Shown in pieces: positions 1 through 61,888 of a DNA stretch of 64,000 nt (the stretch's first letter is position 1; each line of letters starts with the position of its first letter). Position numbers and translations under genes: made by a program. The stretch is from Dokdonia sp. Hel_I_53. GTDB taxonomy: Bacteria; Bacteroidota; Bacteroidia; Flavobacteriales; Flavobacteriaceae. The notes beneath the pieces are model-generated. The model did not search any database and was not told the DNA's origin. It was given only the letters and a program-made list of their open reading frames with translations. The stretch is from the NCBI RefSeq assembly GCF_007827465.1, contig NZ_VISL01000001.1, forward strand, positions 2,189,001-2,253,000, read 5' to 3'.

Positions 1-1109
1 AAGGTAAGAAACAATACACAATGGAATATTTCTATCGCATGATGCGTAAGAAGTACGATATTTTAATGGTAAACGATAAAGACCCAGAAGGTGGTAAATG
101 GAATTTTGACCACAGTAACCGAAATAAGTGGAAAGGCGACACCCTTATCCCACACGAGCGCGGTTTTAGAAAGGATGTAAGCAACATCGTACAACTGCTT
201 AAAGACCAAAAAGTGGAAACTATGGGCCGCATTAATGAACAACACTTTAACTGGCCCACAACAAGAGCCGACGGTCTTTCGGTATTGCGTTATTTCTGTG
301 AAAACTTGCTTGTTCATTTTGGAGATTATCAAGATGCTATGGACCCCAATCAGCCGTATTTATACCACAGCAGGCTAAGCTTTGCACTTAATAGTAAATT
401 GATTGATCCACAAGAAGTGATTAGCTATGTAATTGACCACTGGCGAGAAAATATGGAGGAAATAGCCACTAGTCAAGTGGAAGGTTTTGTGCGGCAAATT
501 TTAGGATGGCGAGAGTATATGCGGGGGATGTATTGGTTGCAAATGCCCGCTTTCGCGAAAGCGAACCATCTAGAAAACACTAATAAATTACCCGATTTCT
601 ACTGGACAGGAAATACTAAAATGAATTGCTTAAAATGTAGTATTACCAATAGTCTTGATGATGCCTATGCCCACCATATACAACGTTTAATGGTTACTGG
701 TAACTATGCCTTGCTTACTATGTGCGACCCGGCTGAGGTAGATAAATGGTATTTAGGCATCTACATAGACGCCATTGAGTGGGTAGAAATTACAAACACC
801 AGAGGAATGTCCCAATGGGCAGATGGCGGTAAAATTGCCACAAAGCCCTATGTCTCTAGCGGTAGTTATATTAATAAAATGTCTAACTACTGTAAAGGTT
901 GCCACTATAAAGTGACCAAGAAAACGGGTGAAGATGCTTGTCCGTTTAACAGCCTTTATTGGAATTTTTTAAGTGAAAAAAGAAAGCATTTTGAACATAA
1001 TAATAGAATGACGATGATGCTTAGTTTACTGGATAAAATGGACAGAAATACACTAGAAGCGCATCAAAAAAGAGCTGCAAGAATTATTGAAAATCCAGAG
1101 AACTATTAA
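1..1109 (+). CDS. FeS-cluster photolyase/cryptochrome-related protein (5' end cut by window)
   Basis: The reading frame is open to the left edge, so the N-terminal Rossmann part is missing; the internal Met at 21 (KKQYTMEYFYR) is a conserved internal segment of the family, not the start. What remains is the helical FAD-binding half of the FeS-BCP/CryB type (COG3046) photolyase family. Four cysteines that would hold the [4Fe-4S] cluster are visible in the motifs MNCLKC, YCKGC and DACPFN near the C-terminus. The family repairs (6-4) photoproducts or acts as a photoreceptor using FAD. The palindrome GCTTTCGCGAAAGC at 549 is translated in frame as AFAKA. It is followed closely by a TIGR03643-like gene, a frequent neighbour of this family. 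Family assignment is confident; repair versus sensing is not decided. Confidence 0.9.
   Translation, partial: GKKQYTMEYFYRMMRKKYDILMVNDKDPEGGKWNFDHSNRNKWKGDTLIPHERGFRKDVSNIVQLLKDQKVETMGRINEQHFNWPTTRADGLSVLRYFCENLLVHFGDYQDAMDPNQPYLYHSRLSFALNSKLIDPQEVISYVIDHWRENMEEIATSQVEGFVRQILGWREYMRGMYWLQMPAFAKANHLENTNKLPDFYWTGNTKMNCLKCSITNSLDDAYAHHIQRLMVTGNYALLTMCDPAEVDKWYLGIYIDAIEWVEITNTRGMSQWADGGKIATKPYVSSGSYINKMSNYCKGCHYKVTKKTGEDACPFNSLYWNFLSEKRKHFEHNNRMTMMLSLLDKMDRNTLEAHQKRAARIIENPENY
549..562. repeat. Dispersed palindrome GCTTTCGCGAAAGC (coding, AFAKA)
   Basis: Perfect copy inside the photolyase gene. Confidence 0.95.
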
Positions 1110-1131
1110 ATTATACAAACACCATCTACCC

Positions 1132-1431
1132 ATGAAAGAAAGAGAAGAGAAAACGTTTACAGCGAGAGAATTAGATCGTATTATAGAAATGGCCTGGGAA
1201 GATCGTACAACATTTGATGCGATTAACTATCAATTTGGCATTTCAGAAAGAGAAGTCATTGACATTATGCGTAGGGAAATGAAGCCTAGTAGTTTTAGAA
1301 TGTGGCGTGCACGGGTACAAGGTAGGGCGACAAAGCATGAGGCAAAACGCAGCTACGAGATGGATGATGCTAGATTTAAATGTAGTAGACAAAAACACAT
1401 CACGCATAACAAAATTTCAAAAAGAAGATAA
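1132..1431 (+). CDS. TIGR03643 / DUF2805 family protein
   Basis: A basic protein of about 99 aa that begins MKEREEKTFTARELDR and holds the pattern ITDA-like 'WEDRTTFDAINYQFG', characteristic of TIGR03643 (DUF2805). The family has a helix-turn-helix-like look (GISEREVIDIMRREM) and is of unknown function. I chose the ATG at 1132; an in-frame start at 1087 would overlap the photolyase end by 23 bases and add residues not typical of the family. It lies 22 bp after the photolyase gene and is probably co-transcribed. The C-terminus is rich in Lys/Arg, which would suit nucleic-acid binding, but that is inference. Confidence 0.8.
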   Translation: MKEREEKTFTARELDRIIEMAWEDRTTFDAINYQFGISEREVIDIMRREMKPSSFRMWRARVQGRATKHEAKRSYEMDDARFKCSRQKHITHNKISKRR

Positions 1432-1443
1432 TGTTTAGATTAC

Positions 1444-1457
1444 GCTTTCGCGAAAGC
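1444..1457. repeat. Dispersed palindrome (intergenic)
   Basis: Perfect copy between the TIGR03643-like gene and the DUF2452 gene; symmetry extends four more bases on each side (TTAC...GTAA). Confidence 0.95.
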
Positions 1458-1476
1458 GTAACTTCAGAATACTATT

Positions 1477-2437: not shown

Positions 2438-2464
2438 TTCTTACTGATTTTTAAAAATTGAGTT

Positions 2465-3049: not shown

Positions 3050-3414
3050 AGAGCGTTGGATTCGTATTAACTTTTTGTGTTTTCAATGCCGAATATATTG
3101 AATTAGATCTGTTTTGAAGTTATACGCTTTCGCGAAAGCGGATTTAATTATAACGAGAAGTAGTATTTAAAGCACTTATTAAAATAATGATGCAAATAAT
3201 AATTCTGTAACATAAGAGAATTTTCGTTTTGATAGAGCATAACCTTAATGATTTCGGTCGTAAATAGACTACTTCTTTTGAATTTGATTGATAATCAAAC
3301 ACTAAGAATAATTGAATTAATAGTTTATGACGTGAGGTTTAAAAATGCACACTAATTTCTAAACCGGCACCGAAAAAAAATTTCAAAAAAAACTTCAAAA
3401 AATTCTTTTTTCTT
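3050..3414. other. AT-rich intergenic stretch with one palindrome
   Basis: The gap upstream of tRNA-Asn holds no credible reading frame. It contains one complete copy of the dispersed palindrome (3126-3139) and an extremely A/T-rich run just before the tRNA promoter. I see nothing else in it. Confidence 0.5.
3126..3139. repeat. Dispersed palindrome (intergenic)
   Basis: Perfect copy upstream of the TPR membrane protein gene. Confidence 0.95.
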
Positions 3415-3444
3415 TTTGATGATTATAAAAAAGCTTTATATTTG
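3415..3444 (+). promoter_or_regulatory. Bacteroidetes-type promoter of tRNA-Asn
   Basis: The -33 box TTTG (3415-3418) and the -7 box TATATTTG (3437-3444) are separated by 18 bp, a full match to the Bacteroidetes primary sigma consensus TTTG/TTG, N17-23, TAnnTTTG. Transcription should start about 20 bp before the tRNA. Confidence 0.85.
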
Positions 3445-3467
3445 CATCCGCTTACAAAAAGTAACAC

Positions 3468-3541
3468 TCCTCAATAGCTCAGTTGGTTAGAGCATCTGAC
3501 TGTTAATCAGAGGGTCCTAAGTTCGAGTCTTAGTTGAGGAG
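3468..3541 (+). tRNA. tRNA-Asn (GTT)
   Basis: A 74-nt cloverleaf. The acceptor arms TCCTCAA and TTGAGGA pair perfectly and the discriminator base is G. The anticodon stem TCTGA/TCAGA frames the loop CTGTTAA with anticodon GTT. The T-arm contains GTTCGAGTC. CCA is not encoded, as is usual in this group. Confidence 0.97.
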
Positions 3542-3551
3542 CTAGTAAGTA

Positions 3552-6278: not shown

Positions 6279-6282
6279 ATTG

Positions 6283-6499: not shown

Positions 6500-7435
6500 T
6501 TACACAAATTTTTGCCTTGCCACTAAAAAAGACGTCAAGATAGGGGTGAACCCCTTTTCAATCACCGCAGGAACATATTTTATTTTATATCTAGCACACT
6601 GCAATTCTAAATTTTTAAAATAAGTTTCCACTGCGCTTTTGTAAACGTCACGTATACTGTCTGCATATAAATTTATAGAGGCACCGCTCTCTACATCAAC
6701 AAATTTGCGTGGACTATTATTAAACTCAAAATTATACTCTTTTTCTTTACTATAGGTATGAAAAAGAACCACCTCGTGCTTGTTATATTTTAAATGCTGT
6801 AAGGCTTCAAATAATTGTTCTTGTTCCAGATCGTCTTGCAACATATCAGAAAACAGGAATACTAAAGAACGTCTTTTCAACTTTTCGGCGATGAGGTGAA
6901 GATGCTTGTAGGTTTTTGTTTTTTTAGACGCTTTAGCAAAAGCAGGGTTGAGAACACTACTTAATTGATCTAGCAACATGTGGTGGTGCCGTTCACTCCC
7001 TTTCTCTCCCGTATAAAAATCATAATCTTCGCTATAAACACTCATACCTACCGCATCACGCTGTCTCTTCATAAGATTCATTATCGCGGCGCTAGCCAGT
7101 GCAGAAAAGCTAATCTTATTTAGAGTGTCTAAACTATACTTTTGCACTTCTGGATAATGCATAGAGCTACTGTTGTCTAAAATAAGATGACAGCGCAAAT
7201 TTGTCTCCTCTTCGTAGCGCTTCGTGTAAAGTCTATCTGTTTTTGCGTAGAGCTTCCAGTCTATATGTTTAGTGCTTTCTCCAGGGTTGTAGATCTTGTG
7301 TTCTGCAAACTCTGCAGAGAAGCCGTGAAATGGACTCTTATGCATTCCAGATATAAAACCTTCTACTACCTGCCGGGCAAGCAGCTCAAGATTTCCAAAA
7401 CCCGAAGTTTTATTTAATTCTGAAGTGATATCCAT
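6500..7435 (-). CDS. DUF58 domain-containing protein (vWA-like)
   Basis: A 311-aa protein with the DUF58 signature GFSAEFAEHKIYNPGES (about 39-55), then IDWKLYAKTDRLYTKRYEEE and the vWA/MIDAS-like segment LILDNSSSMHYP. In many Bacteroidetes such proteins sit with a MoxR ATPase and Bat proteins and are thought to help assemble envelope complexes. Here neither MoxR nor Bat genes are adjacent, so it is either detached from that cluster or a separate paralogue. There is no signal peptide. A terminator separates it from the upstream clpP gene. Confidence 0.85.
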   Translation of the reverse strand: MDITSELNKTSGFGNLELLARQVVEGFISGMHKSPFHGFSAEFAEHKIYNPGESTKHIDWKLYAKTDRLYTKRYEEETNLRCHLILDNSSSMHYPEVQKYSLDTLNKISFSALASAAIMNLMKRQRDAVGMSVYSEDYDFYTGEKGSERHHHMLLDQLSSVLNPAFAKASKKTKTYKHLHLIAEKLKRRSLVFLFSDMLQDDLEQEQLFEALQHLKYNKHEVVLFHTYSKEKEYNFEFNNSPRKFVDVESGASINLYADSIRDVYKSAVETYFKNLELQCARYKIKYVPAVIEKGFTPILTSFLVARQKFV

Positions 7436-8233: not shown

Positions 8234-8275
8234 TTTTTCGCGAAAGCAAAATCTCCATTCATACCTGCTAAAAAT

Positions 8276-10111: not shown

Positions 10112-13100
10112 TTACCCCACAATATTTACAATCTTCCCTGGAACGATAATTACTTTTTTAGGCTCCCGACCATTTAAATACATCTGTGTTTTTTCGTGAG
10201 CCATCACGGTTTTTTCAATCTCGTCCTTTGACATGTCTAAAGGTAGTTCTAAAGTAAACTTCATTTTCCCGTTAAAAGAAATAGGGTAGTTTTTAGAACT
10301 TTCTACTAAGTGACTAGCATCAAAAACAGGAAATGCAGCTTCAGAAATACTTTCGGTGTGTCCAAGTTTATTCCATAGCTCTTCTGCGATGTGTGGTGCA
10401 TAAGGAGCAATTAAGATTGCAAGCGGTTCTAGAACCTCACGAGAAGTACACTTTTGAGCATTTAATTCATTTACCGCAATCATAAATGTAGAGACAGAGG
10501 TATTGAAAGAGAAATTTTCAATGTCTTCTTCTACTTTTTTAATTGTTTTATGAAGTGTCTTTAAACTGTCTTTGCTGGCACCAGCCTCAGAGATATAAAA
10601 CTCAGCTTCTTCTTGCGGTACTTGTTTTGTTTCTTCTTTTTTGTCTTGTGGCACATAGTTGTGATATAACTTCCAGAATTTCTTTAAGAAACTATGTACA
10701 CCCGTAATACCTGCCGTGTTCCAAGGTTTTGCTTGCTCTAGCGGACCTAAAAACATCTCATACATACGTAAGGTATCTGCCCCGTACTGCTCACAGATTT
10801 CATCTGGATTGACCACGTTGTATTTGGACTTAGACATTTTTTCGACTTCGCGGGAAGCAGTAAATTTATCACTATCTACTTTTGCTACATTTCCTTCATC
10901 GTCAATAAAAATAGCATTTTCAAGTTCTGGTAGCCATCTAGAAAATTTATCTAAATCAACTTGATTTGAAGAGTCTATAAAACTAACATCTAAATGGGTT
11001 GGTATAAAATCCTTAATATTCGCTTTTGCCTTTACTAATTTCGGCCCGAATATTTCCCGCATTTGAAGCAGCAAGTTATTTTCGAAATTTACGACATCAA
11101 TTTCTTTTGATGATAATTTTTCATACATCCCTCCAGAAAAAATGATTGGAATTTTTTTCATCTTTTCTTTTATGTCTGAACCTTCCGAATCTAATCCAAA
11201 CCCAATCCATCTATAAACAAAAGCACTCGTCCCCAAGATCATCCCTTGGTTGATCATTTTTTGGAAAGGTTCTTCTACACCTACATAACCTCTGTCCTTT
11301 AAGAATTTTACCCAGAAGCGAGAGTACAACAAGTGTCCTGTTCCATGCTCAGAGCCTCCTATGTATAAATCTACATTGCCCCAGTAGTCTAATGCTTCTT
11401 TACTAGCAAACACTTGATCGCGCTGGGCTTTCTCCATATACCTAAAGAAATACCAGCTACTTCCTGCCCAACCCGGCATGGTGTTTAATTCTAATGGGAA
11501 AACTGTTTGGTCATCAATCAAATCATTAGATACGACTTCATTTTTTGAAGTATCCCACGCCCAAACATCGGCGCGGCCTAGTGGTGGTTCTCCTTCTTCT
11601 GTTGGAAGATATTTTTCTACTTCTGGGAGGCGTATAGGTAAATGCGCTACATCAATCATTTTAGGAATGCCGTTGTCGTAATATACTGGAAACGGCTCTC
11701 CCCAATATCGTTGACGACTAAAAACAGCATCGCGCAATCGATAATTTGTTTTACCAGATCCTGCACCCATTTTCTCAAGCTCGTAGATCGCAAGTTTTAC
11801 GGCCTTCTTATATTTCAAACCGTTGAGGAAGTCGGAGTTTGTAATTACCGTACCTTCTTTATCTGCATAGGCCTCCTCTGAAATATCAACACCTTCAAAA
11901 ACATTTGGAATAGGAATGCCAAAGTGCGTTGCAAAATCATGATCACGTTGATCACCACATGGTACAGCCATTACGGCTCCAGTACCATACCCCGCCAATA
12001 CATAATCACCTATCCAAATAGGAATAGGCTCCTTCGTAAATGGATGCTCTGCATAAGCTCCTGTAAAAGCACCAGAGATGGTTTTTACATCTGCCATACG
12101 ATCACGCTCAGAACGTTTTGCTGTAGCCTCAATGTATGCATCAACTTCTGCTTTTTGTGCTGGAGTGGTAATCTCCTGTACAAGATCTAACTCTGGTGCT
12201 AGTGTCATGAAGGAAACTCCAAAAATAGTATCAGGTCTAGTTGTAAAGACTTCAATTTTTTTATCGTGATCCTTTAAATCAAAAGAAACGGTAGCACCCA
12301 CAGATTTTCCAATCCAGTTGCGTTGTGTTTCTTTAATCGACTCACTCCAGTCTATGGTCTCTAACCCTTGCCTCAAGCGTTCTGCATAGGCCGAGATACG
12401 CATAGACCATTGAGTCATTTTTTTACGTACAACGGTGTGACCACCACGCTCAGAAACGCCATTTACAATCTCATCATTAGCTAAAACTGTTCCTAATGCT
12501 GGGCACCAGTTCACTTCAGTCTCAGCTAAGTAGGTGAGTCTATATTGTAATAAAATATCTTGTTGTTCTTTCTCTGTAAAGTTTGTCCACTCTGCAGCTG
12601 TAAATGGTGCAATACCTTCATCGCAAGCAGCGTTTATCTGGCTGTTTCCTTCTTTCGCAAAAGCGGAAACCAGCGTATCTATCTGCTCTGCCTTATTTGT
12701 ATCGTAATTATACCAAGAGTTAAACAGCTCTGTAAAAATCCACTGTGTCCATTTATAATAGGCAGGATCTGAAGTGCGTACTTCACGACTCCAGTCAAAA
12801 GAAAAACCTATTTTGTCTAACTGCTGGCGATAGCCTGCAATCTCATTACCTTGATTATCTACACCACCTTCAATATTGACCCTTGTGGTTACCGCGGGAT
12901 GCTGCCCTGTCTGGATAGCATATTGCTCTGCAGGAAGTCCAAAAGAATCATAACCCTGTGGATGAAGCACATTAAAACCCTTTAATCGCTTATAACGAGC
13001 ATACACATCACTAGCGATATACCCAAGTGGGTGACCTACGTGAAGTCCCGCTCCAGAAGGGTAAGGAAACATATCGAGCACATAATATTTAGGCTTATCG

Positions 13101-13203: not shown

Positions 13204-13217
13204 GCTTTCGCGAAAGC
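13204..13217. repeat. Dispersed palindrome (leuS leader)
   Basis: Perfect copy 20 bp before the leuS start. Confidence 0.95.
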
Positions 13218-15833: not shown

Positions 15834-16892
15834 TTATGTTTTATCAAAAAAAGCGTCTATAAAATTCTCTATGAGAACAGGGACCGGAAAATTTCTAATG
15901 TTTTTTACCGCTATTACCTCATTCTCTAAAGAGTTTACCTCTATAATCCAGAAAGTCGTGTAAAGATGCTGATGGGATAATTTATGAAGTACAGGTTTGT
16001 CATTATACCTTATAATATTTGTGGTTTCAATGTTTTTTAATGCTGTGGAGGCGTTTACGCTTTCGCGAAAGCGTACTTCCTCCTTCTCATCCACAAAATG
16101 ATCTGTTTCTATAAGTGGAAATTCATAGAGCCCCTGCCAGATACCTTTTCCTTTACGCTGTTTAAGAATTGTGGTCTGATCCTTAGAGTTAAATACAAGA
16201 TAATTAAGATGTCGATATTTAACCTTGGTTTTTTTTAATTTAACCGGTAATCTATGTATACTATTGTTCTGAAAGGCAGTACAGCGATCATTATATATAC
16301 AATGGAGGCAATAAGGATTTTGAGGTTTACAATGGATAGCGCCAAATTCCATAATTGCTTGATTGAAATCTGCTGGTCGTTTTTTATCAATCAATTCTTG
16401 TGCTAAGGCTTTAAATTCTTTTATTCCCTCAGTACTATTTATTGGAGTTTCAATGCCAAACACCCTAGAGAGCACTCTATATACATTGCCATCTACCACA
16501 GCGGTAGGTTCATTAAAACATATGCTAGCTATGGCGCTTGCAGTATAATCTCCTACCCCTTTTAATTTTTTAATTTCTGAATAAGTTGATGGAAATTTCC
16601 CGTCCATTTCATTTACGATCATTTTGGCAGAAAAGTGTAGGTTCCGACCTCGTGAATAATAACCTAGTCCTTGCCATAATTTAAGGACCTCTTCCTCACT
16701 AGCTGCAGCAAGATCTTGAACGGTTGGAAAAGCTTCTGTAAAAGAAATGTAGTAGGGTAAACCTTGCGCTACTCGCGTTTGTTGAAGTATGATTTCTGAG
16801 AGCCAAATTTTATAAGGATCTGTGGTGTTGCGCCACGGCATATCTCGTTTATGCTCTATGTACCATGTAATGAGTTTGTTAGAAAACGACAC
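15834..16892 (-). CDS. mutY: A/G-specific adenine DNA glycosylase
   Basis: A 352-aa MutY that removes adenine opposite 8-oxoguanine. The catalytic Glu33 lies in SEIILQQTR, the helix-hairpin-helix is LKGVGDYTA, the catalytic Asp134 is in VVDGN, and the [4Fe-4S] cysteines are at 188, 195, 198 and 204. The C-terminal NUDIX-like domain (GIWQGLYEFPLIE) reads the oxidised base. A perfect dispersed palindrome at 16059-16072 is translated in frame as RFRES in the linker region of this C-terminal domain. It is divergent to hup. Confidence 0.96.
   Translation of the reverse strand: MSFSNKLITWYIEHKRDMPWRNTTDPYKIWLSEIILQQTRVAQGLPYYISFTEAFPTVQDLAAASEEEVLKLWQGLGYYSRGRNLHFSAKMIVNEMDGKFPSTYSEIKKLKGVGDYTASAIASICFNEPTAVVDGNVYRVLSRVFGIETPINSTEGIKEFKALAQELIDKKRPADFNQAIMEFGAIHCKPQNPYCLHCIYNDRCTAFQNNSIHRLPVKLKKTKVKYRHLNYLVFNSKDQTTILKQRKGKGIWQGLYEFPLIETDHFVDEKEEVRFRESVNASTALKNIETTNIIRYNDKPVLHKLSHQHLYTTFWIIEVNSLENEVIAVKNIRNFPVPVLIENFIDAFFDKT
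16059..16072. repeat. Dispersed palindrome (coding, RFRES)
   Basis: Perfect copy inside mutY. Confidence 0.95.
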
Positions 16893-19232: not shown

Positions 19233-19281
19233 TATGCGCTTTCGCGAAAATGAACCGCCTCTAATCCACTACATTTGTAGT

Positions 19282-19761
19282 GTGCGACAACCCGTTAAAA
19301 CATACACCGTAGAAGAAGCCAAACGTAAGTTAGAAGCTTATTGTGCCTATCAAGAGCGTTGTCATAAAGATGTAGCTTGTAAACTGCGTGAGATGCGCAT
19401 GATTCCAGAGGCTATAGATATTATTATAAGTCATCTCATCGAGCACAATTTCTTAAATGAAACCCGATTTGCTCAGGCATTTGCACGAGGAAAATTTAGA
19501 CAAAAAAGTTGGGGTAGAAACCGTATCACACGCGAACTCAAATCACGTCATATTTCAGCTTACAATCTTAAGATGGCAATAAAAGAGATAGATTCAGAGG
19601 AGTATTTAGAAGTGTTTGACACCCTTTCGCGAAAGCGGTATGAACAACTATCCTCAGAGTCAAACGTACAGCGCAAGCGTAAAAAACTAGCAGATTATTT
19701 ATTGTATCGTGGTTGGGAGAGTGGGATGGTGTATGAGAAGGTGAGGGAATTAGTTTGTTAG
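19282..19761 (+). CDS. recX: Regulatory protein RecX
   Basis: A RecX-family protein that modulates RecA filaments. The family core begins at YTVEEAKRKLEAYCAYQERCH and continues with the three-helix repeats (ARGKFRQKSWGRNRITRELK, LLYRGWESGMVYEKV). I place the start at the GTG at 19282. The longer frame from ATG 19234 would begin directly at the rng terminator T-run, and its first residues come from a degenerate palindrome (CGCTTTCGCGAAA). A TACATTTG -7-like box at 19270-19277 also lies inside that extension. Another palindrome core at 19625 is read in frame as LSRKR. Confidence 0.88.
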   Translation: MRQPVKTYTVEEAKRKLEAYCAYQERCHKDVACKLREMRMIPEAIDIIISHLIEHNFLNETRFAQAFARGKFRQKSWGRNRITRELKSRHISAYNLKMAIKEIDSEEYLEVFDTLSRKRYEQLSSESNVQRKRKKLADYLLYRGWESGMVYEKVRELVC

Positions 19762-26265: not shown

Positions 26266-26345
26266 GGTGCAACGCGGCATTACTTTTGGAGTCTTTAACG
26301 GGAGAAGCTTATTTTTGGGCTTCGATTATTTTAAAACACTATTTT

Positions 26346-26768
26346 ATGAAGATCACCTCTACATGTATTGCTTTGGGTTTATTGTTTTTCTCTGCTTTCG
26401 CGAAAGCGCAAAGAGATACCACAACGATAACCGTAGATGTGCCTAAAATTGTCATGAAGGCAAGCCTAGGTGTTCCAGTACCCATGGGAGATGTAACTGT
26501 TGAATTAATAGAAGTATTTGAGGATAGTAGATGTCCAAGTGATGTGCAGTGCATCTGGGCAGGACATGTAAAACTTGCTATCGCAATCACGGAAAATCAA
26601 AAAACTACAATTGAAAAGATCACCTTTGGCCAAAATAACTCTACCATGCTTTACGATAGAGATGGTTTTAAGATATATTTGAAGGGTGTATTGCCTTACC
26701 CAAAAACTTCAAAAAAAATTGATAAGGGTGAGTATGCAATCTTAGTAGAGAGGCTAGCTTTCAATTAA
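26346..26768 (+). CDS. Secreted protein with DSRCPxDVxCxWAG motif
   Basis: A 140-aa protein. The signal peptide reads MKITSTCIALGLLFFSAFAKA and is cleaved after AKA. The residues AFAKA are encoded by a perfect copy of the dispersed palindrome (26394-26407). The mature protein has the motif EDSRCPSDVQCIWAGHVKL, seen in a family of small bacterial secreted or lipid-anchored proteins; its two Cys probably form a disulfide. I chose the ATG at 26346 because it starts the signal peptide; an upstream in-frame start at 26286 would bury it. It lies 80 bp after the permease and may belong to the metal operon. Confidence 0.8.
   Translation: MKITSTCIALGLLFFSAFAKAQRDTTTITVDVPKIVMKASLGVPVPMGDVTVELIEVFEDSRCPSDVQCIWAGHVKLAIAITENQKTTIEKITFGQNNSTMLYDRDGFKIYLKGVLPYPKTSKKIDKGEYAILVERLAFN
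26394..26407. repeat. Dispersed palindrome (coding, signal peptide AFAKA)
   Basis: Perfect copy that forms the end of the signal peptide of the DSRCP protein. Confidence 0.95.
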
Positions 26769-29494: not shown

Positions 29495-29508
29495 GCTTTC
29501 GCGAAAGC
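29495..29508. repeat. Dispersed palindrome (intergenic)
   Basis: Perfect copy between feoA and the SCO1 gene; extended TACGC...GCGTA symmetry. Confidence 0.95.
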
Positions 29509-29558: not shown

Positions 29559-30257
29559 TTAAAATAGCTTTTCCCACCATTTTTTTGCAGGCTCGTAAGA
29601 TTCTTTCAATATCTCAATATCTTCAAGCAATTGTTCAATGGATTCACTACTGGTTCCGTCATAATACCCTCGTATTTGTTTCTTTTTATCTATGAGCATA
29701 AAATTTTCTGTATGCACCATTTCATTTTCTTCGCCAGGAATATCCTTGACCGCAAGATAGCTCTTTCGCGCAAGCGTATAAATTTGCTCGCGAGGGCCTG
29801 TTACAAGATTCCATTTTGTGTCATCGACCCCTTTTTCAACAGCATAAGCTTTTAAAATTTCTGGAGTATCATATTCTGGAATTACCGTATGTGAGAGTAG
29901 GAGTACGGAAGGATCATCTTTGAGTTTGTTTTGAATCTCAACCATGTGTTCTGTCATAATCGGGCAAATATCCTGACAGGTAGTAAAGAAAAAGTCTGCC
30001 ACATAAATCTTATCCTTATAAAAATCCTGTGTGATGATTTTGTTGTTTTGATTAGTCAATTCAAAATCTGCAATGCGATGGTATTTTTTAACATCTTGAA
30101 GTGTGGTGTCTACTAGTGATTTTTCAACCATTTCTGGTTGATATATAGGAAGTTGCGGCGTAGTTTTAAGTTGACTATATATTAAAGTAAGAATAATACT
30201 AGAAAGCACAATCATTGTGATGATAAGCACTTTATACCTTTTTACGATGCTAGACAT
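29559..30257 (-). CDS. SCO1/SenC family copper chaperone
   Basis: A 232-aa protein with one N-terminal membrane anchor (about residues 8-28; VLIITMIVLSSIILTLIY) and a thioredoxin-like domain outside. The copper-binding CxxxC is Cys94-Cys98 (FTTCQDICPIM) and the distal His is in LSHTVIPEYD (His123). SCO proteins deliver copper to cytochrome oxidase CuA. The degenerate palindrome CTCTTTCGCGCAAGCG lies in frame near 29760, read as LARKS. No oxidase genes are nearby. Confidence 0.93.
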   Translation of the reverse strand: MSSIVKRYKVLIITMIVLSSIILTLIYSQLKTTPQLPIYQPEMVEKSLVDTTLQDVKKYHRIADFELTNQNNKIITQDFYKDKIYVADFFFTTCQDICPIMTEHMVEIQNKLKDDPSVLLLSHTVIPEYDTPEILKAYAVEKGVDDTKWNLVTGPREQIYTLARKSYLAVKDIPGEENEMVHTENFMLIDKKKQIRGYYDGTSSESIEQLLEDIEILKESYEPAKKWWEKLF

Positions 30258-31723: not shown

Positions 31724-31737
31724 GCTTTCGCGAAAGC
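31724..31737. repeat. Dispersed palindrome (intergenic)
   Basis: Perfect copy 12 bp after the rseP stop, before its terminator. Confidence 0.95.
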
Positions 31738-48323: not shown

Positions 48324-48337
48324 GCTTTCGCGAAAGC
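48324..48337. repeat. Dispersed palindrome (intergenic)
   Basis: Perfect copy 13 bp after the adhesin stop. Confidence 0.95.
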
Positions 48338-51453: not shown

Positions 51454-51467
51454 GCTTTCGCGAAAGC
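51454..51467. repeat. Dispersed palindrome (intergenic)
   Basis: Perfect copy just past the terminator of the OmpA-family gene. Confidence 0.95.
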
Positions 51468-51980: not shown

Positions 51981-53417
51981 ATGCTGTCGTATATCACACA
52001 AGTCATTTGCTTTCAAGCTCTATTCATGGCGGTTTACTATTTTCTGTTGCGTAAAGAAACTTTTTTTCAGTATAACAGGTTCTATTTATTAGCAACGGTC
52101 TTCGCATCATTTATCATCCCAATGATTAAGATTAGTTTTCTGGAGACAGCTGTTCCTGTCGAAGCTTTTCAGACAGTACTTCCAGAAGTGATTATAGGTA
52201 ATACTCAACTAGCAAAAGGGGAAATAGTAACGAATCAAGGATACTATAGTTTTCCGTGGCTCATAGTATATGTCATTGGTGTTGTTACAAGTATTTTTGT
52301 TTTGTTTTCAAAAATTATTAAGCTGTTACCTTATTTTAAGTATAAACAACTCGGAAAAAATATCATAGAAATTCCAGAGTCTAAAGAAGCATTCACGCTC
52401 TTCAATTACATATTTATAGGAAAGGATATAGACAAGCTTTCGCGAAAGCAAATACTTATTCACGAACGCATACACGTGAAGCAAAAGCATACTTGGGATC
52501 TCCTATTTTTTGAATTGTTACGCATTGTGATGTGGTTTAATCCTTTTATTTATGTTTTCCAAAAGCAAACAAGCATTATTCATGAATACTTAGCCGATCA
52601 AAAGGCGGTAAACGCGCAATCAAAGAAAGAATATTTTGAGCAACTACTTAATGCAGCATTTGGCACAGAGCAATTATCATTTACAAATACATTTTTCAAT
52701 CATTCATTAATCAAAAAACGAATCACTATGTTACAAAAATCAAAATCAAAAAGAATTACTTTAATTAAGTACACACTTATAGTACCATTAGTTCTAGCGA
52801 TGTTGGTATACACATCTTGCTCTAAAGAAAATGAATTAGAAACAGAGCAGTCACTAGAACAACAAATTGCTTCATTAAAATTTGCTATTGAGGAAAAAGG
52901 CGAGATCTCAGAGAGTGAAACACAACTGCTCAATGAGCTCAATAAATCATTAGTGGGAAAATCTAACATGACTCTGGTTTATTCATATAGCCCGGACAAT
53001 AATGGAAAGGATATAGAAGAAGTAGTAGAGCAAAGAAGACTTGAAGAGAATGGTGAAAATATCCCATTTGCAGTTATTGATGAAGTTCCCGTTTTTCCTG
53101 GATGTGAAGGACTTTCCTCTAACGCAGAGCGCAAGCAATGTATGTCTAGTAAAATCTCAGAAAGTATAGGAAGTAACTTTGACACCTCAATAGGAAAAAA
53201 GTTAGGATTATCAGGTGTTACTAGAATTTTTGCCACTTTCAAAATTGACAAAAATGGATATATTTCAGGGCTACGTACACGCTCGCCTCATCCCTCATTG
53301 GATCTCGAAGCAGAACGTGTGATATCAATGATTCCTAAAATGGAACCTGGTAAGCAAAATGGAGAGCCTGTAAGTGTTTTATATAGCCTCCCAATTACTT
53401 TCGCAATCAGTGAATAA
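51981..53417 (+). CDS. BlaR1/M56-family sensor peptidase with C-terminal TonB-like domain
   Basis: A 478-aa protein. The N-terminal M56 part has four transmembrane helices (about 4-22, 33-50, 92-112, 262-281) and the zinc motif HERIH at 161-165. The palindrome at 52436 is translated as LSRK just before it. Instead of a penicillin-binding sensor there is a lipobox-like TSCSKE, a coiled-coil-prone segment (about 285-330) and a TonB_C-like domain (about 355-478; VPVFPGCEGLSSNAERKQC, TRIFATFKIDKNGYISGLR, EAERVISMIPKMEPGKQNG). This is the common Bacteroidetes variant; what it senses is unknown. It is 6 bp after the repressor gene and 5 bp before the TPR gene. Confidence 0.9.
   Translation: MLSYITQVICFQALFMAVYYFLLRKETFFQYNRFYLLATVFASFIIPMIKISFLETAVPVEAFQTVLPEVIIGNTQLAKGEIVTNQGYYSFPWLIVYVIGVVTSIFVLFSKIIKLLPYFKYKQLGKNIIEIPESKEAFTLFNYIFIGKDIDKLSRKQILIHERIHVKQKHTWDLLFFELLRIVMWFNPFIYVFQKQTSIIHEYLADQKAVNAQSKKEYFEQLLNAAFGTEQLSFTNTFFNHSLIKKRITMLQKSKSKRITLIKYTLIVPLVLAMLVYTSCSKENELETEQSLEQQIASLKFAIEEKGEISESETQLLNELNKSLVGKSNMTLVYSYSPDNNGKDIEEVVEQRRLEENGENIPFAVIDEVPVFPGCEGLSSNAERKQCMSSKISESIGSNFDTSIGKKLGLSGVTRIFATFKIDKNGYISGLRTRSPHPSLDLEAERVISMIPKMEPGKQNGEPVSVLYSLPITFAISE
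52436..52449. repeat. Dispersed palindrome (coding, LSRK)
   Basis: Perfect copy in the BlaR1-type gene, five residues ahead of HERIH. Confidence 0.95.
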
Positions 53418-53421
53418 CAGA

Positions 53422-54618
53422 ATGAAAAACTTAATTGGAATCTTATTAATCTTAGGTAGTATAAAAGCCGGAGCACAGTCTTCGGCTTTAACTATTGGTG
53501 ATAGTTTATATGCGTCAGGGAACTATTCAAAAGCAATTGCTAGTTATGTATCTGTAGTAAACCCAAATTCTAAAACATTTTTACAAATCGCCAGAGCTTA
53601 TAATGCAAAGGGGGTAAAAGGTTCAGCACTAGAATACTATAAAAAGTCAATTCAAAAAGAGAATCGGCAGCCTATCGCACAATTAGAATATGGAAAGCTA
53701 TTGCTCTCGCAATTAAAATTTTACACCGCAGATACCGTATTTTCCTCGCTCACAAACCAGTATCCAGATAATCCAGAATATTATTACCAATTAGGAAGAT
53801 CTTTACAGCTAATTGAGAGAAAAAATAAAACGGACTCAACCTCAATTGCATCCGTTAGTACTATTGAATTACCTGAGACCGCTTTCGCGAAAGCGGTACA
53901 ACTAGATTCCACCCATCAGAAGGCGATGTATGACTTATCTAAAATATATCTTGCAAAAAGGGACTATACAAATGTTGAAAAAATCACAAGCAAGGCGTTA
54001 GAAAGCGACCCAGAAAATATTAAAATGATAAGCCTTCAGGCGCAGAATTATTATTACAAAGGCTGGTGGACAGAAGCGATTGTGCGTTTTGAAAAATTGA
54101 TCTCATTAGGGCAATCTACTAGTTTTATTCATGACAAATTGGGTAGATCTTATTACCAAAAAAGACAATATAAAAAAGCGATAGCCCAGTACGAGATACT
54201 GTTAGAATCTGCAGATGATGATTGGGGCTTACATCTTACACTTTCTAGACTTTATGCTTTTGAAAATGAACTAGAAAAATCAATAACCTCTGGAAAGCAA
54301 GCACTTTATTTAAAGGATTTGCCGCTCGATGATGTGTTCTTTACATTAGGTAGATCTTACGAATTAAAAAGGGATTACAAACAAGCTTTAAATTATTACA
54401 GCAATGCCCTGAAGGAGAATTCTAATAATGATGACGCGCGCTATGGTCTAGCAGTAGCAGCAGATAATTATTATGAAGATAAAAGTGAGGTACTCAAAAT
54501 GTATGAAACGTATGTGAATAGCCTAGATAAAAGTAAGATTACACCTTACAAAGCTAGACTTGCAGAGTTGCGTATACAGGAGCTAAAGCGGCAAATTTTT
54601 GTGGAAAGTAACCAATAG
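53422..54618 (+). CDS. Secreted TPR-repeat protein
   Basis: A 398-aa protein with a signal peptide (MKNLIGILLILGSIKAGAQ, cleavage after GAQ) and about eight tetratricopeptide repeats (SGNYSKAIASYVSVV, KGSALEYYKKSIQ, KRDYTNVEKITSKALESD, KRDYKQALNYYSNALKE and others). The start is the ATG at 53422, five bases after the blaR1 stop; a longer frame within blaR1 is not needed. A perfect palindrome at 53881 gives AFAKA in a loop between repeats (extended to 20 bp, ACC...GGT). It probably scaffolds periplasmic partners of the operon; this is inference. Confidence 0.88.
   Translation: MKNLIGILLILGSIKAGAQSSALTIGDSLYASGNYSKAIASYVSVVNPNSKTFLQIARAYNAKGVKGSALEYYKKSIQKENRQPIAQLEYGKLLLSQLKFYTADTVFSSLTNQYPDNPEYYYQLGRSLQLIERKNKTDSTSIASVSTIELPETAFAKAVQLDSTHQKAMYDLSKIYLAKRDYTNVEKITSKALESDPENIKMISLQAQNYYYKGWWTEAIVRFEKLISLGQSTSFIHDKLGRSYYQKRQYKKAIAQYEILLESADDDWGLHLTLSRLYAFENELEKSITSGKQALYLKDLPLDDVFFTLGRSYELKRDYKQALNYYSNALKENSNNDDARYGLAVAADNYYEDKSEVLKMYETYVNSLDKSKITPYKARLAELRIQELKRQIFVESNQ
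53881..53894. repeat. Dispersed palindrome (coding, AFAKA)
   Basis: Perfect copy in the TPR gene; extended by ACC...GGT to 20 bp. Confidence 0.95.
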
Positions 54619-57305: not shown

Positions 57306-58264
57306 TGAGTTGCAATTTTGAAAGGTCTTTGACGTATCAACAAGTAATAAGCACCTAAAATTAGCGGAAGCAATACATTAAAAAACCACATTAGTAATAC
57401 GGTCATAAGTACAATTTCTTCAGCCACATCAAACCAGGCAAAAACAATAACAGCTACACTCACACGAACAACCACATCAAATAATTGCATGATTGGAAAA
57501 AGAGAACTTAATACATACATGGTAAAAATACACGCCATTGAAAATGGATAGTTAAGATCAGATCCCAAAAGATATAGAATTAGATAAAATTGGTGTGCAA
57601 AAATGACATACCTTAAGATGGATAACAAGCGAACCTTCGTTTTCAATGGTGCTGGAATTTTCTTCCAAAATCCCTTAATTTTATACCAAACATTACCTTT
57701 TAAGGTCCAGTTTATACTCCTTAAAAGTTTAGGTGTAATTTGATACAGAATTAAGGTCATAAAAATACTTAGTCCCCAAAAGAAAATAGCTGTACCACTT
57801 GTGAAAAAAGCAATGACACCTAAACCGATAAAACCAAAAATTAACGTAGCCAGTAATTGATACATATTGCCAATAAAATTTAGAAATAATATCTTTTTTC
57901 GCTCTTTTGGATTATAAAAAAATGCTTTAGAACCGTAATCACCAGCTTTTGCAGGAGTAATAAAACCAATAAGATGAGCGGTAAATGTTTGGTTTACGCT
58001 TTCGCGAAAGCGTATATCTTCTAAATAACTAACTAATTCCTTCCATTTTAAAACCTCAAAAAACCAATTTGCTGTCGAAAAGAGAAGTAAGGTAGTAACG
58101 AGAAAAATAACATTTAAAGTTGAATGAAGATCTAGTTGATTGCGGAGTTCTTGCAAAGATTGAGCATCTATTTTTAAATAGATGAAATAGGCAGCAGCTA
58201 CGAGAATGAGAATCTTAACGATTGCCCATAGTAATTGTTTAGTTTTGCTTGATAATCTTGGCAT
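57302..58264 (-). CDS. Lysylphosphatidylglycerol synthase-like / flippase-like membrane protein
   Basis: A 320-aa polytopic protein with about eight hydrophobic segments (ILVAAAYFIYLKIDAQ, FLVTTLLLFSTANWF, FITPAKAGDYGSKAFFY, FIGLGVIAFFTSGTAIFF and others), matching the LPG_synthase_TM/UPF0104 family. Members move or modify lipids or polyprenyl sugars; here it is coupled to a GT2 gene, which suggests glycolipid or polysaccharide work. A perfect palindrome at 57998 is read on the minus strand as RFRES in the loop VRFRESVNQ-like (EDIRFRESVNQTF). Confidence 0.82.
   Translation of the reverse strand: MPRLSSKTKQLLWAIVKILILVAAAYFIYLKIDAQSLQELRNQLDLHSTLNVIFLVTTLLLFSTANWFFEVLKWKELVSYLEDIRFRESVNQTFTAHLIGFITPAKAGDYGSKAFFYNPKERKKILFLNFIGNMYQLLATLIFGFIGLGVIAFFTSGTAIFFWGLSIFMTLILYQITPKLLRSINWTLKGNVWYKIKGFWKKIPAPLKTKVRLLSILRYVIFAHQFYLILYLLGSDLNYPFSMACIFTMYVLSSLFPIMQLFDVVVRVSVAVIVFAWFDVAEEIVLMTVLLMWFFNVLLPLILGAYYLLIRQRPFKIATQ
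57998..58011. repeat. Dispersed palindrome (coding, RFRES)
   Basis: Perfect copy in the flippase-like gene; extended TACGC...GCGTA symmetry. Confidence 0.95.
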
Positions 58265-58858: not shown

Positions 58859-58912
58859 TTCGCAATATTTTAATGAGTACGTGCAACTAATTGAAGGAAT
58901 CACATAACACTT

Positions 58913-60046
58913 ATGTCTAGTCTTTACATCCATATACCGTTTTGCAAGCAGGCGTGTCACTATTGTGACTTCCACTTTTCTACTACCATGGGGAAAAAGG
59001 AGGAGATGATAGCAGCGATAATTCGGGAATTAGAGCTTCGCAAAGACGAGTTTGAGGGTGAAGAAGTTTCAAATATCTATTTTGGCGGGGGGACTCCTTC
59101 TGTGCTCGATACAGAAGAAATTAACCAAATTATTGACGCGTGTTATAAAAATTATAACATTCAAGAGGATCCAGAAATCACTTTAGAAGCAAATCCAGAT
59201 GATCTCACAGAGATAAAAATCAACCAGTTAGCTGCCTCGAGAATCAATAGACTGAGCATTGGAGTACAATCTTTTTTTGAGCAAGATTTAAAATTAATGA
59301 ACCGTGCTCATAATGCACAAGAGGCGATTGACTGTATCACGCTTTCGCGAAAGCGTTTTCCCAATAGTTCACTCGACCTCATTTACGGTATCCCAGAGAT
59401 GAGTATGGAGCGTTGGGAACAGAACATTGACACCGCTCTTTCTTTAGGTGTTCCTCACATTTCTGCCTATGCTTTAACGGTTGAGCCTAAAACTGCTCTT
59501 GAAAACTTCATAAAAAAGGGTATTGTCCCTCCGGTACAAGATGAAGTAGCTCAAGAACATCATGCCTTATTAATTAAGAAAATGGAGGCGGAAGGATATG
59601 AAAATTACGAGTTTTCAAATTTTGCATTACCTGGCTACCATTCAAAGAATAATACGGCTTACTGGCAGGGTAAAAAATATATAGGGATAGGACCCTCTGC
59701 GCATAGTTACGATGGGAAGAGACGCGCGTGGAATATCAATAACAACCCAAAATTTATTAAGGCAATCACAGCGGGAGAGCTCCCTCAAGAAGTAGAGAAA
59801 CTTACACTTACAGATAGTTATAATGAGTATGTGATGACACGATTGCGTACTAAATATGGTGTGTCTTTAAATGAGATCAATTCCTTGTTTGGTGCGAAGT
59901 TTAAAAATTACTTTCTAGAACATTCTAAAAAGCATCTGGACGAGCATTTACTTTTTAGAGAAGAAGATCGTGTCTACGTTTCAAGAAAAGGAAAATTCCT
60001 AAGTGACGGTATCGCTAGCGACTTATTCTTGCTTAATTTGGGGTAA
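58913..60046 (+). CDS. hemW: Radical SAM heme chaperone HemW
   Basis: A 377-aa radical SAM protein. The SAM cluster motif CxxxCxxC is Cys11-Cys15-Cys18 (PFCKQACHYCDF), then YFGGGTPS, the RLSIGVQSF segment and the C-terminal HemN_C-type region. HemW transfers heme; older annotations call it coproporphyrinogen III oxidase-like. The residue pattern and length match HemW rather than HemN. The palindrome at 59341 is read as LSRKR in a solvent-exposed-looking segment (TLSRKRFPNS). It lies 55 bp after ruvC. Confidence 0.93.
   Translation: MSSLYIHIPFCKQACHYCDFHFSTTMGKKEEMIAAIIRELELRKDEFEGEEVSNIYFGGGTPSVLDTEEINQIIDACYKNYNIQEDPEITLEANPDDLTEIKINQLAASRINRLSIGVQSFFEQDLKLMNRAHNAQEAIDCITLSRKRFPNSSLDLIYGIPEMSMERWEQNIDTALSLGVPHISAYALTVEPKTALENFIKKGIVPPVQDEVAQEHHALLIKKMEAEGYENYEFSNFALPGYHSKNNTAYWQGKKYIGIGPSAHSYDGKRRAWNINNNPKFIKAITAGELPQEVEKLTLTDSYNEYVMTRLRTKYGVSLNEINSLFGAKFKNYFLEHSKKHLDEHLLFREEDRVYVSRKGKFLSDGIASDLFLLNLG
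59341..59354. repeat. Dispersed palindrome (coding, LSRKR)
   Basis: Perfect copy in hemW. Confidence 0.95.
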
Positions 60047-60069
60047 TTACCTCTAGTGATTGACATATA

Positions 60070-60100
60070 TTGTCTAAAAATTACAGATTCCGTATATTTA
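60070..60100 (+). promoter_or_regulatory. Promoter of the cyclase gene
   Basis: TTG (60070-60072), 20 bp, then TATATTTA (60093-60100; one mismatch to TAnnTTTG). It argues that the TTG is a promoter box and not a start codon. Confidence 0.55.
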
Positions 60101-60123
60101 AACAAACCTCATATCTAGCTACT

Positions 60124-60876
60124 GTGCACGCAAAAATTACCCATAACAATAAAATCTACGCTGTAGATTTATCCAAACCTATCGATATTTCTATACCGCT
60201 TAGGCAAGATAAAAATCCAACTGCGTGGTATCTCGAAGGGCCAAAATTTGAACCCGTAACTGACGGGGAATGGGTAGGAAAAGTAAGTGAAGGAGGAGAT
60301 GTAAACTTCACAACCATTACTTTTAACCCGCATTCTCACGGTACGCATACAGAATCTGCCGGTCACATTACAGAAAAAGTATATAGCATCAATAAACAGC
60401 TTACACAATTTTTCTTCATTGCAGAAGTAATCACAGTCATACCAGAACCTCTAGATAATGAAGATGATGATTTTATCCTAAAAGATAGACAGTTTGCAAG
60501 GTTGCTTAGAGATAAATCCCCCGAAGCATTAGTAGTAAGAACACTCCCTAATGCGAGAGAGAAAAAAACGATGGATTGGTCACACACCAATTGGCCTTAC
60601 GTAGAGGATAAAGCAATGGCGAGATTTTGTCGTAATGGTATCAAGCACCTGCTTATTGATTTGCCTAGTGTAGACAAAGAAAAAGATGGTGGCGAACTCA
60701 AATCTCATCACGCTTTTTGGAATATTCCCAAAAATATACGCTTAGACGCGACCATAACAGAGATGATTTACGTGCCACATGATGTTCCAGACGGTACCTA
60801 TCTTCTCAATTTACAGATTGCATCTTTCGAAAATGACGCAACACCTAGTAAGCCAGTTTTGTATGCTATAGAATAA
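60124..60876 (+). CDS. Cyclase family protein (kynurenine formamidase-like)
   Basis: A 250-aa metal-dependent hydrolase. The family motif HxxxHxxxxxH-like stretch is HSHGTHTESAGHI, near residues 78-90, followed by a conserved DLPSVDKEKD segment. The family includes bacterial kynurenine formamidase; the substrate here is not known. I place the start at the GTG at 60124 (VHAKITHNNKIYAVDLSKPI): a promoter-like pair lies upstream of it, and the earlier in-frame TTG at 60070 coincides with the -33 box. The longer version would have 268 aa. Confidence 0.85.
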   Translation: MHAKITHNNKIYAVDLSKPIDISIPLRQDKNPTAWYLEGPKFEPVTDGEWVGKVSEGGDVNFTTITFNPHSHGTHTESAGHITEKVYSINKQLTQFFFIAEVITVIPEPLDNEDDDFILKDRQFARLLRDKSPEALVVRTLPNAREKKTMDWSHTNWPYVEDKAMARFCRNGIKHLLIDLPSVDKEKDGGELKSHHAFWNIPKNIRLDATITEMIYVPHDVPDGTYLLNLQIASFENDATPSKPVLYAIE

Positions 60877-60961
60877 AAGAAGTGTAACCTTTCAATATAA
60901 ATTAGCTAGTATTTCAGGTTCTTCAAATTGCGTTAGTTCTTTTAGTATCTTAAAGTCTATT

Positions 60962-61888
60962 ATGAATAGATATACTAAAAGTCTTCCGTTGGCAATTTTC
61001 CTTTTCGCTTTCGCGAAAGCGATTACCGCACAATCATATGTTGATCTAGTAAAGTTTAATTATGGGTCTATCATAAATGCTGGCTATGAAAATAGTGATG
61101 AGCATACAGATATATCTTTAATTAATGGAACAATCACACTTCCCATTCCCGTAACCGAAGATGTAGCCATTATTACTGGAGCAGAATTTATAAGTCAAAA
61201 TCTTTCACTAAGTCCTAATGCTTTTGAAACCAACATATCCTCCATAGCTTTAAGAGCAGGTTTATCTTGGAAACATAGTGACAAGTGGTCTGGTACGTAT
61301 GTACTCATACCAAAAATGGCTGGTGAGGAACTTAATTTTGAGGGAGATAATTTCTTTTTGGGTGCAATTGCTCTTTTAAAATATCAAAAGACCTCTAGCA
61401 CGCAATATCGTTTTGGCATTTATGCCTCAGATGAAGCTTTTGGTACGCTGGTAACTCCCATACTAGGTATGTACTATAATAGCCCATCGAACAATTGGGA
61501 GGTTACGGCAAACCTGCCACTCACAGCAGATGTGAATTATAGCTTTAATCCAGGTCTTGCGCTTGGTTTTGCCTTACAATCTCAAGTACGCTCCTATGGA
61601 CTTAAACCTATCGAGGGAATTGAAAATCGATACGTTCAAGGTCAGAATATAGAATTTGGACCTTACATACAGCAATCTTTTTTAGATAAAAAATTGTTGT
61701 TAAACTTTCAAACGGGTTATGCCAGCATTGATTATGCGAGTTATGCCGTTAGTGATAAAGTGTCTTGGCGATTATTAGCTTTTGATTTTGGAGATAATCG
61801 TACACAACTTAATCCAGTCACAACGGGTTCAATCTTTTTGCGAATAGGAGCTATTTATAGATTTCATCTCAAAACGGATGAGGATTAA
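60962..61888 (+). CDS. DUF6268-like outer-membrane protein
   Basis: A 308-aa protein. The signal peptide contains FLFAFAKAITAQ, where AFAKA is encoded by the palindrome at 61007; cleavage is probably after TAQ. The mature part is made of beta strands (ISLINGTITLPIPV, GTYVLIPKMAGEEL, VTANLPLTADVNYSF) and a terminal strand IGAIYRFHLK, as expected for an outer-membrane barrel of the DUF6268 type. Function unknown. Convergent with the CYTH gene, 10-bp gap. Confidence 0.78.
   Translation: MNRYTKSLPLAIFLFAFAKAITAQSYVDLVKFNYGSIINAGYENSDEHTDISLINGTITLPIPVTEDVAIITGAEFISQNLSLSPNAFETNISSIALRAGLSWKHSDKWSGTYVLIPKMAGEELNFEGDNFFLGAIALLKYQKTSSTQYRFGIYASDEAFGTLVTPILGMYYNSPSNNWEVTANLPLTADVNYSFNPGLALGFALQSQVRSYGLKPIEGIENRYVQGQNIEFGPYIQQSFLDKKLLLNFQTGYASIDYASYAVSDKVSWRLLAFDFGDNRTQLNPVTTGSIFLRIGAIYRFHLKTDED
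61007..61020. repeat. Dispersed palindrome (coding, signal peptide AFAKA)
   Basis: Perfect copy within the signal peptide of the DUF6268-like protein. Confidence 0.95.

Follow-up and report, generated by a model that had tools for sequence, protein, structure and literature searches.

Genome-wide words such as the DNA uptake sequence (DUS), the uptake signal sequence (USS), Chi, and the highly iterated palindrome (HIP) HIP1 reflect the ways in which bacteria distinguish self from foreign DNA and repair or exchange it. In the cited parts of two papers, uptake sequences are described as relatively evenly distributed, with a spacing matching conversion fragments, as bringing no gain when two sites lie close together, and as under-represented in new DNA and in constrained genes (PMC2397512, PMC7811141). 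For HIP1, Elhai 2015 describes a methylation-directed repair model, in a text where a search for the terms Bacteroid- and Flavobacter- gave no hit (PMC4390886). Here we analyze a 14-bp palindrome, GCTTTCGCGAAAGC, that recurs in a stretch of 64,000 nucleotides of Dokdonia sp. Hel_I_53 (contig NZ_VISL01000001.1, positions 2,189,001 to 2,253,000; hereafter the window). It is a real genome-wide signal, undescribed as far as our literature searches reach: these found no paper on this word, or on such a signal in Flavobacteria or their phylum, most subscription journals lying outside their scope. We see close to an even chance that it is a palindromic self-DNA signal of Dokdonia, Nonlabens, and a third genus with an enforced range, where each 60-bp site would serve ~1–3 kb, redundant neighbors would erode, and substitution would recreate missing ones even where amino acids change as a result.

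The window, with a G+C content of 35–44%, holds 15 exact copies, the number counted in an earlier sequence-only reading of this DNA, and seven further copies with one or two mismatches (at 6930, 8234, 12651, 19238, 19623, 29762, and 63316). That reading had reported six degenerate copies, all of which exist, each 2 bp away from the given position, and had overlooked the one at 6930. Its claim that chance would hardly produce such a word was borne out, as 100 dinucleotide shuffles of the window gave a mean of 0.12 matches at two or fewer mismatches, the largest number being 2.

The source genome (G000), a single contig of 2.93 Mb, contains 700 exact copies, a mean density of one site per 4.2 kb, where the reversed control word has 0. 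Twenty evenly placed 20-kb stretches carried 1–10 copies each, with no visible gradient along the chromosome. A count close to expectation or a restriction to this one region, the outcomes that would have undone the proposal of a genome-wide word comparable to HIP1, did not occur, and as with HIPs the palindrome is highly iterated genome-wide. In a 464-kb sample made of the window and these 20 stretches (some bases masked), 110 exact copies were found with 14 one-mismatch and 21 two-mismatch copies; the word is nearly all-or-none.

Among 397 genomes of the family, 80 had at least one copy and only six had hundreds, namely two of genus g1 (G000, 700; G206, 857), three of genus g11 (G010, 578; G242, 664; G394, 609), and the one sampled genome of a third genus, g191 (G190, 408), which has the same dominant word at 45.8% G+C. 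The remaining 391 held 0–19 copies, the next highest counts being 19, 17, and 16. With incomplete genomes included, the word is carried by all 18 genomes of g1 (369–905 copies) and all 23 of g11 (288–857 copies), 41 of 41 in the two genera, and copy number does not rise with genome size (570–903 in members of 4.3–5.5 Mb, 685–905 in complete members of 2.9–3.6 Mb). We infer that g1 is Dokdonia and g11 Nonlabens. A 24-bp extended form, which misses carriers with other flanks, matched 32 stretches among 84,980 named species, all in records of Dokdonia, Nonlabens, or 'Flavobacteria bacterium BBFL7', which we take to be a Nonlabens. The over-representation of one word is confined to this lineage, as in uptake sequences. 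By exact 10- and 12-mers, no comparable iterated word was found in 10 other genomes of nine genera (80–120 kb each), where the best 12-mer count was 7, versus 20–31 in 80-kb samples of G000 and G206. Separately, a weaker repeated 12-mer, TTCCGAAGAAAA, was seen in G078 (L389–L392), with 7 copies in 80 kb.

Sites repel each other over 1–3 kb. In the first 437 kb of G000, 2 of 99 gaps between sites were shorter than 1 kb where 20 were expected (0 of 20,000 permutations); for the stretches farther along, the count was 3 of 79 (19.6 expected, 0 of 5,000). The gene-called sample had 3 of 89 such gaps, against 26.9 expected when the coding or intergenic class of each site was kept and 20.2 when at most one intergenic site was allowed per spacer (0 of 5,000 in both cases). 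The rate of meeting a next site climbs from 0.03 per kb at distances under 500 bp to 0.44 at 3–5 kb and drops to 0.28 beyond 6 kb; this pool comprises 291 gaps, 11 of them under 1 kb, between the first-listed sites of G000, G397, and one G413 contig, three listed G413 sites on other contigs being dropped. Degenerate copies also shun exact ones, 5 of 41 lying within 1 kb of one where random places in the same stretches predict 14.4. In small samples the effect is weaker, with 2 of 17 gaps under 1 kb in G206 (3.6 expected), 0 of 9 in G010 (1.7), and 1 of 25 in named loci (6.6); G190 gave 1 of 32 for exact copies (4.9 expected, p 0.03) and, when one mismatch was tolerated, 2 of 54 (9.7 expected, p 0.001).

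A spacing rule of this kind could also reflect a chromosome-organizing site, bound by a dimeric nucleoid protein with a Noc-, SlmA-, or MatP-like role or anchoring SMC or topoisomerase every few kb, where selection would keep about one site per 3–5 kb. Such a site would agree with the palindrome and its structured ~60-bp footprint, the strict core, the lack of a visible gradient over the 20 stretches, the conservation of place described below, and near-exact copies at near-ordinary density even in a stretch of defense genes. However, no exact site lies in a 16-kb adhesin stretch, large genomes do not fill up with sites, and ParB_N is present as a single copy in eight of eight carriers, with one or two copies in each of eight non-carriers, leaving no extra ParB_N copy as a dedicated ParB- or Noc-family reader in the word-bearing genomes. 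We regard this role as rather unlikely, though live. LexA-like operators of Bacteroidetes were also considered, and those given in the cited portion of the literature are different motifs (PMC8565304).

The recognized unit seems to be larger than the palindrome. The sequence-only reading had noticed TAC/GTA arms, which were recovered (C 77%, A 51%, and T 75% at −1, −2, and −3), and 176 sites from stretches not chosen by flank gave 80%, 46%, and 74%, with a lower share of A at −2 among the Nonlabens-type sites sampled (0.17) and in G190 (0.30). At these 176 sites the 5′ flank on each strand is poor in C from −20 to −5 (0.07–0.11, background 0.187), and the 5′ flanks of both strands are richer in G and T, a signal that fades by about −30. 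A pool of 275 sites gives a matching signature, 57 of them coming from named loci picked by the extended pattern and hence biased at −1 to −5. Sites in genes and between genes alike show this symmetric signature, those in genes on either strand. Followed site by site, the palindrome stops extending at about −2; left and right flanks are uncorrelated, and they show a composition bias with no shared sequence. Because the inner hexamer TCGCGA outside the 14-mer is near expectation (44 observed, 34 expected) and the flank signature extends around the 14-mer, the unit recognized is probably the whole, nearly invariant 14-mer with its preferred TAC/GTA arms and C-poor 5′ flanks, ~60 bp in all.

The same counts bear on a HIP1-like mark, where an orphan DNA methyltransferase acting on the inner site, together with methyl-directed mismatch repair, would create and protect the palindrome. 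As the cited part of the HIP1 paper reports for that word, one-mismatch copies often deviate at the outermost base (8 of 14 in G000, 7 of 13 in G206), and the repair model described there also predicts saturation by range (PMC4390886). In G190, however, one-mismatch copies are spread over the outer five bases, with only 5 of 22 at the outermost one, and the near-expected count of TCGCGA speaks against a mark on the inner site; known methyltransferase sites are also shorter. An inner-site enzyme wherever the word is abundant was not found among C5 methyltransferases of PF00145, absent from three of nine carriers (G000, G242, and G190, two of them single-contig), or among N4/N6 methyltransferases of PF01555, absent from six of eight carriers and present in two. 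Neither family being common to all carriers, the methylation option that the sequence-only reading had left open loses ground as far as these two families go, PF02086, PF02384, and the Eco57I families lying outside the comparison. We judge the HIP1-like mark improbable, though live.

A simple gene caller placed 66 copies of the G000 sample between genes, 43 in coding sequence, and one partially in a gene; its calls span 80% of the sample and overlook some genes, which makes the intergenic share somewhat high, and it labeled two of the eight intragenic window copies intergenic. Density was 0.72 per kb outside called genes versus 0.116 per kb inside, and the intergenic preference holds in all gene orientations (++ 18, −− 14, −+ 15, +− 11; 9 with an unknown neighbor). 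An element acting at the RNA level, such as a terminator hairpin, or a mobile repeat such as a repetitive extragenic palindrome (REP) or a miniature inverted-repeat transposable element (MITE), would suit this preference and the perfect self-complementarity. Since divergent spacers are not avoided, a terminator as the main role is disfavored, and the restriction to 3′ gene ends typical of intrinsic terminators was not seen. The halt of the palindrome at about −2, the absence of any common sequence beyond the core, with flanks biased in composition only, and gains inside reading frames speak against mobile repeats as well, so that we find this class of explanation scarcely credible.

In the window, the split described by the sequence-only reading was reproduced against the list of open reading frames (ORFs), with eight exact copies inside ORFs and seven between them. 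The sites, given in window coordinates and with no strand assigned, are the following.

549..562, no strand, exact copy inside ORF 21–1109 (photolyase-related, PF04244); exact at the orthologous place in G206
1444..1457, no strand, exact copy, intergenic, with TTAC/GTAA arms; not conserved in G206
3126..3139, no strand, exact copy, intergenic
6930..6943, no strand, 2-mismatch copy; exact at the aligned place in G206
8234..8247, no strand, 2-mismatch copy
12651..12664, no strand, 2-mismatch copy inside leuS; exact in G206; exact copy in the same loop of G010 (Nonlabens-type) in another frame
13204..13217, no strand, exact copy just upstream of leuS; 2-mismatch copy at the orthologous place in G206
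16059..16072, no strand, exact copy inside mutY; exact at the orthologous place in G206
19238..19251, no strand, 2-mismatch copy
19623..19636, no strand, 1-mismatch copy; exact in G206
26394..26407, no strand, exact copy, inside ORF 26286–26768 (no Pfam match) only if the TTG start at 26286 is used
29495..29508, no strand, exact copy, intergenic, adjoining feoB
29762..29775, no strand, 2-mismatch copy
31724..31737, no strand, exact copy, intergenic, just after rseP; exact at the orthologous place in G206
48324..48337, no strand, exact copy, intergenic, just after the ORF with a type IX secretion system (T9SS) type B sorting domain
51454..51467, no strand, exact copy, intergenic, after the OmpA-domain ORF 49444–51387
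52436..52449, no strand, exact copy inside the M56/TonB_C ORF 51981–53417
53881..53894, no strand, exact copy inside the TPR ORF 53374–54618, with ACC/GGT arms
57998..58011, no strand, exact copy inside ORF 57302–58264 (no Pfam match)
59341..59354, no strand, exact copy inside the radical-SAM/HemN_C ORF 58913–60046
61007..61020, no strand, exact copy inside the DUF6268 ORF 60962–61888
63316..63329, no strand, 2-mismatch copy

In 28 alignments of G000 and G206 (74.6% identity), seven of nine G000 sites are exact in G206, among them the site at 549 (partner at L082:3731), where other 14-mers are fully conserved in 3.5% of cases; a tenth site, at 13204, is cut by an alignment end and has two mismatches in G206, which brings the intact share to 7 of 10. 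Seen from G206, 7 of 12 sites are exact in G000 (one duplicate row dropped). Alignment of orthologs, the check proposed by the sequence-only reading, reveals both conservation at orthologous places in this one species pair and turnover of sites. At leuS, two sites lie 550 bp apart, and the two Dokdonia-type genomes differ in which of them is exact: in the leuS loop, G206 has an exact site and G000 the 2-mismatch copy at 12651, and upstream of the gene G000 has the exact site at 13204 and G206 a 2-mismatch copy (L084:365). G010 has an exact site in the same variable loop, in another reading frame and encoding different residues, and the site is absent from all 28 non-carrier genomes in the LeuS alignment; the G010 site may most simply be read as an independent gain. 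Other comparisons cover few sites, with none in the G190 alignments (12 kb) and one in those of G010 (10 kb), with two mismatches in G000; two more G000 matches sit in a 94%-identical segment common to G413.

On a single origin of the word, the gene trees disagree. In the LeuS tree, G190 (408 copies) groups with G254 (0 copies) with a support of 100/99; in the ComEC tree, which includes two non-carriers only, it joins Dokdonia at 98/96, and all carriers fall on one side of a branch supported at 90/92; in the ParB tree it is split from G254, yet not joined to Dokdonia alone. Fossil, degenerate copies were absent in the genus of G254, with 32 matches in G254 (control 21) and 25 in G027 (control 26).

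Tentatively, and with somewhat less than even confidence, we favor the explanation that Dokdonia, Nonlabens, and one related genus accumulated the word through transformation, as a palindromic uptake signal for self DNA. The palindrome would form the core of a signal for self-recognition, namely a DNA uptake sequence whose palindromic form is incidental, and a putative dimeric DNA-binding component at the surface or in the periplasm would recognize the ~60 bp formed by core, arms, and C-poor flanks. Uptake would be favored for fragments carrying a site, and biased conversion during their homologous recombination (molecular drive) would then multiply sites and mend damaged ones. A single site would serve a whole fragment; a second within 1–3 kb would bring no gain and decay, which would produce the spacing. 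Conservation of place, turnover, mutual exclusion, and lineage restriction together fit a signal of which one per fragment suffices. More broadly, the spacing rule, turnover, and lineage restriction lean towards uptake or recombination. ComEC, present in all 10 genomes examined for it, counts in favor of this explanation, as do the lower density of sites inside genes and copy numbers that do not rise with genome size. We infer transformation as the process, and likewise that a reader protein exists and what kind it is. A preference for own DNA is described for the flavobacterium Riemerella columbina in the cited part of one report (PMC7965970).

Phages and acquired DNA gave a mixed picture. 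No copy at two or fewer mismatches occurs in a pair of related Nonlabens phages, each of 35.7 kb and lacking an annotated integrase, where ~8 per phage would be expected at host density. Among the matches listed for IMG/VR viral contigs, 15 contig groups have 2–4 copies, 13 of them with C-poor 5′ flanks (0.15 or less), and 95 single-copy contigs, mostly of high G+C, lack the signature on average, a few low-G+C ones showing it. Three contigs checked for genes carry portal, capsid, and connector genes, integrase and primase genes, and a head protease gene, respectively. The temperate-phage-like contigs with 2–4 copies and the flank signature (L184, L218, L245, and others) are candidate phages of Dokdonia or Nonlabens. 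In G000, 34 kb at 391–425 kb (L298, L299) contain MmeI/Eco57I-type, OLD-type, and strawberry-notch-helicase genes; with four exact and five one-mismatch copies, this stretch has an ordinary total and fewer intact sites (5 of 9 with one mismatch), including a 20-kb gap between exact copies. A pair of copies 223 bp apart lies there in a DUF7192 segment that was probably exchanged recently, because it is 94% identical to the Nonlabens-type G413.

That phage-like contigs carry the site would also suit a bidirectional Chi-like recombination or self-recognition site, which would halt an end-processing helicase-nuclease and whose GT-rich 5′ flank strand would become the 3′ tail for RecA loading; phages can carry Chi. 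One site per 4.2 kb is near the density of Chi in E. coli, and the 5′ flanks of both strands, G/T-rich and C-poor to ~20 nt and fading by 30, lie on the strand that would become the tail. Chi, however, is short, non-palindromic, and common to related genera, whereas other genera have nothing similar here, and a 14-bp requirement would be unusual for a helicase-nuclease. We consider such a site distinctly unlikely, though live.

The word also appears in genomes otherwise poor in it. We inspected 20 copies, a small part of all such copies, in G087, G078, G337, G093, G012, and G101: for nine of them the surrounding ORF has an RND-pump, outer-membrane-efflux, or heavy-metal P-type-ATPase domain, two fall within different genes (DUF3570, DsbD-type), three are intergenic, and six are in further ORFs, the domain check covering the others. 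Their 5′ flank C content of 0.078 (local background 0.187), close to the 0.086 of G000, suggests that they may be islands from word-bearing lineages, with Dokdonia- or Nonlabens-type donors. In G087, G078, and G101 (L095, L096, L100), and by coordinates in G215, two copies lie exactly 933 bp apart in a 405-aa ORF, an outer-membrane efflux protein in G078, in hosts otherwise nearly without the word. This pair probably marks islands moved between genera.

Several observations weigh against the uptake explanation. ComEC is present in all 10 genomes examined for it, the eight carriers and both word-less ones. DUF5689, assigned to a Riemerella transformation gene family in the cited part of one paper (PMC8459023), is present in all 18 genomes examined, carriers and non-carriers alike, and its tree does not sort by the word, so that no receptor was found among the candidates examined (ComEC and DUF5689). 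The temperate-phage-like contigs carry sites with the flank signature, and, considering them and the defense-gene stretch, a depletion of the word in acquired DNA is not clear. A family-wide system of words with dialects is not apparent in the genomes sampled, and our literature search found no paper joining Dokdonia with natural competence (Nonlabens was not searched for). No uptake sequence is known to be palindromic. In the cited parts of the literature, moreover, known uptake sequences are ~1–1.5 kb apart, versus ~4 kb here (PMC2397512, PMC7811141).

As for DUF5689 itself, its scores are 136–180 bits in eight of eight carriers and 184–222 in 10 non-carriers; it was set aside as the receptor, as a similar, milder trend appears in the ParB scores and three label changes are required on the DUF5689 tree. 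The proteins (L330–L337) differ sharply within a genus (G206 versus G000 and G397; G010 and G242 versus G394 and G429), suggesting a possible replacement between lineages.

Within the window, no exact copy starts between 31724 and 48324, in line with the claim that none occurs inside the 16-kb adhesin gene. This adhesin stretch (32575–48310), with a G+C content of up to 44% versus ~36% around it and no exact copy, was read as two long ORFs, 32575–40677 and 45122–48310, the latter with the T9SS type B sorting domain.

The word can finally be set beside the known systems. With ParB/Noc/SlmA-type sites (parS and the Noc-binding site, NBS), it shares the look of a palindromic binding site and TTTC half-site elements; it differs in having far more copies, in its intragenic copies, and in the lack of an extra ParB_N gene. 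With Chi, it shares density and possibly a G/T-rich 5′ flank, and it is palindromic, long, and lineage-specific where Chi is not. HIP1 of cyanobacteria (GCGATCGC) and the alternate HIPs are, in the cited part of the HIP1 paper, likewise palindromic and highly iterated with symmetric extensions, and deviate often at the outermost base, as in G000 and G206 and unlike G190 (PMC4390886). In contrast to HIP1, the core here is 14 bp instead of 8, the inner hexamer is not enriched, no PF00145 or PF01555 methyltransferase is common to all carriers, and density is about a quarter of the ~one per 1000 nt given there for HIP1 (PMC4390886).

The DUS and USS of Neisseriaceae and Pasteurellaceae also have hundreds of copies of one lineage-confined word, fewer in coding sequence and built of a core with flanks. 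Even spacing is likewise common to both sides (PMC2397512, PMC7811141). The word differs from them in being palindromic, with a 14-bp core, a ~60-bp footprint, and one site per 4.2 kb, in Bacteroidota, where its uptake role is a proposal, and close pairs are rare here, unlike DUS with its inverted pairs at terminators. Its quantitative spacing rule and the visible gain, loss, and replacement of sites make drive versus selection directly testable in culturable marine bacteria, and its same-flank copies in efflux-gene islands of other genera mean that it may tag gene flow. If it is a self-DNA signal with an enforced range, Bacteroidota would have their first uptake or bidirectional recombination signal, also the first such signal to be palindromic, with a putative dimeric reader.

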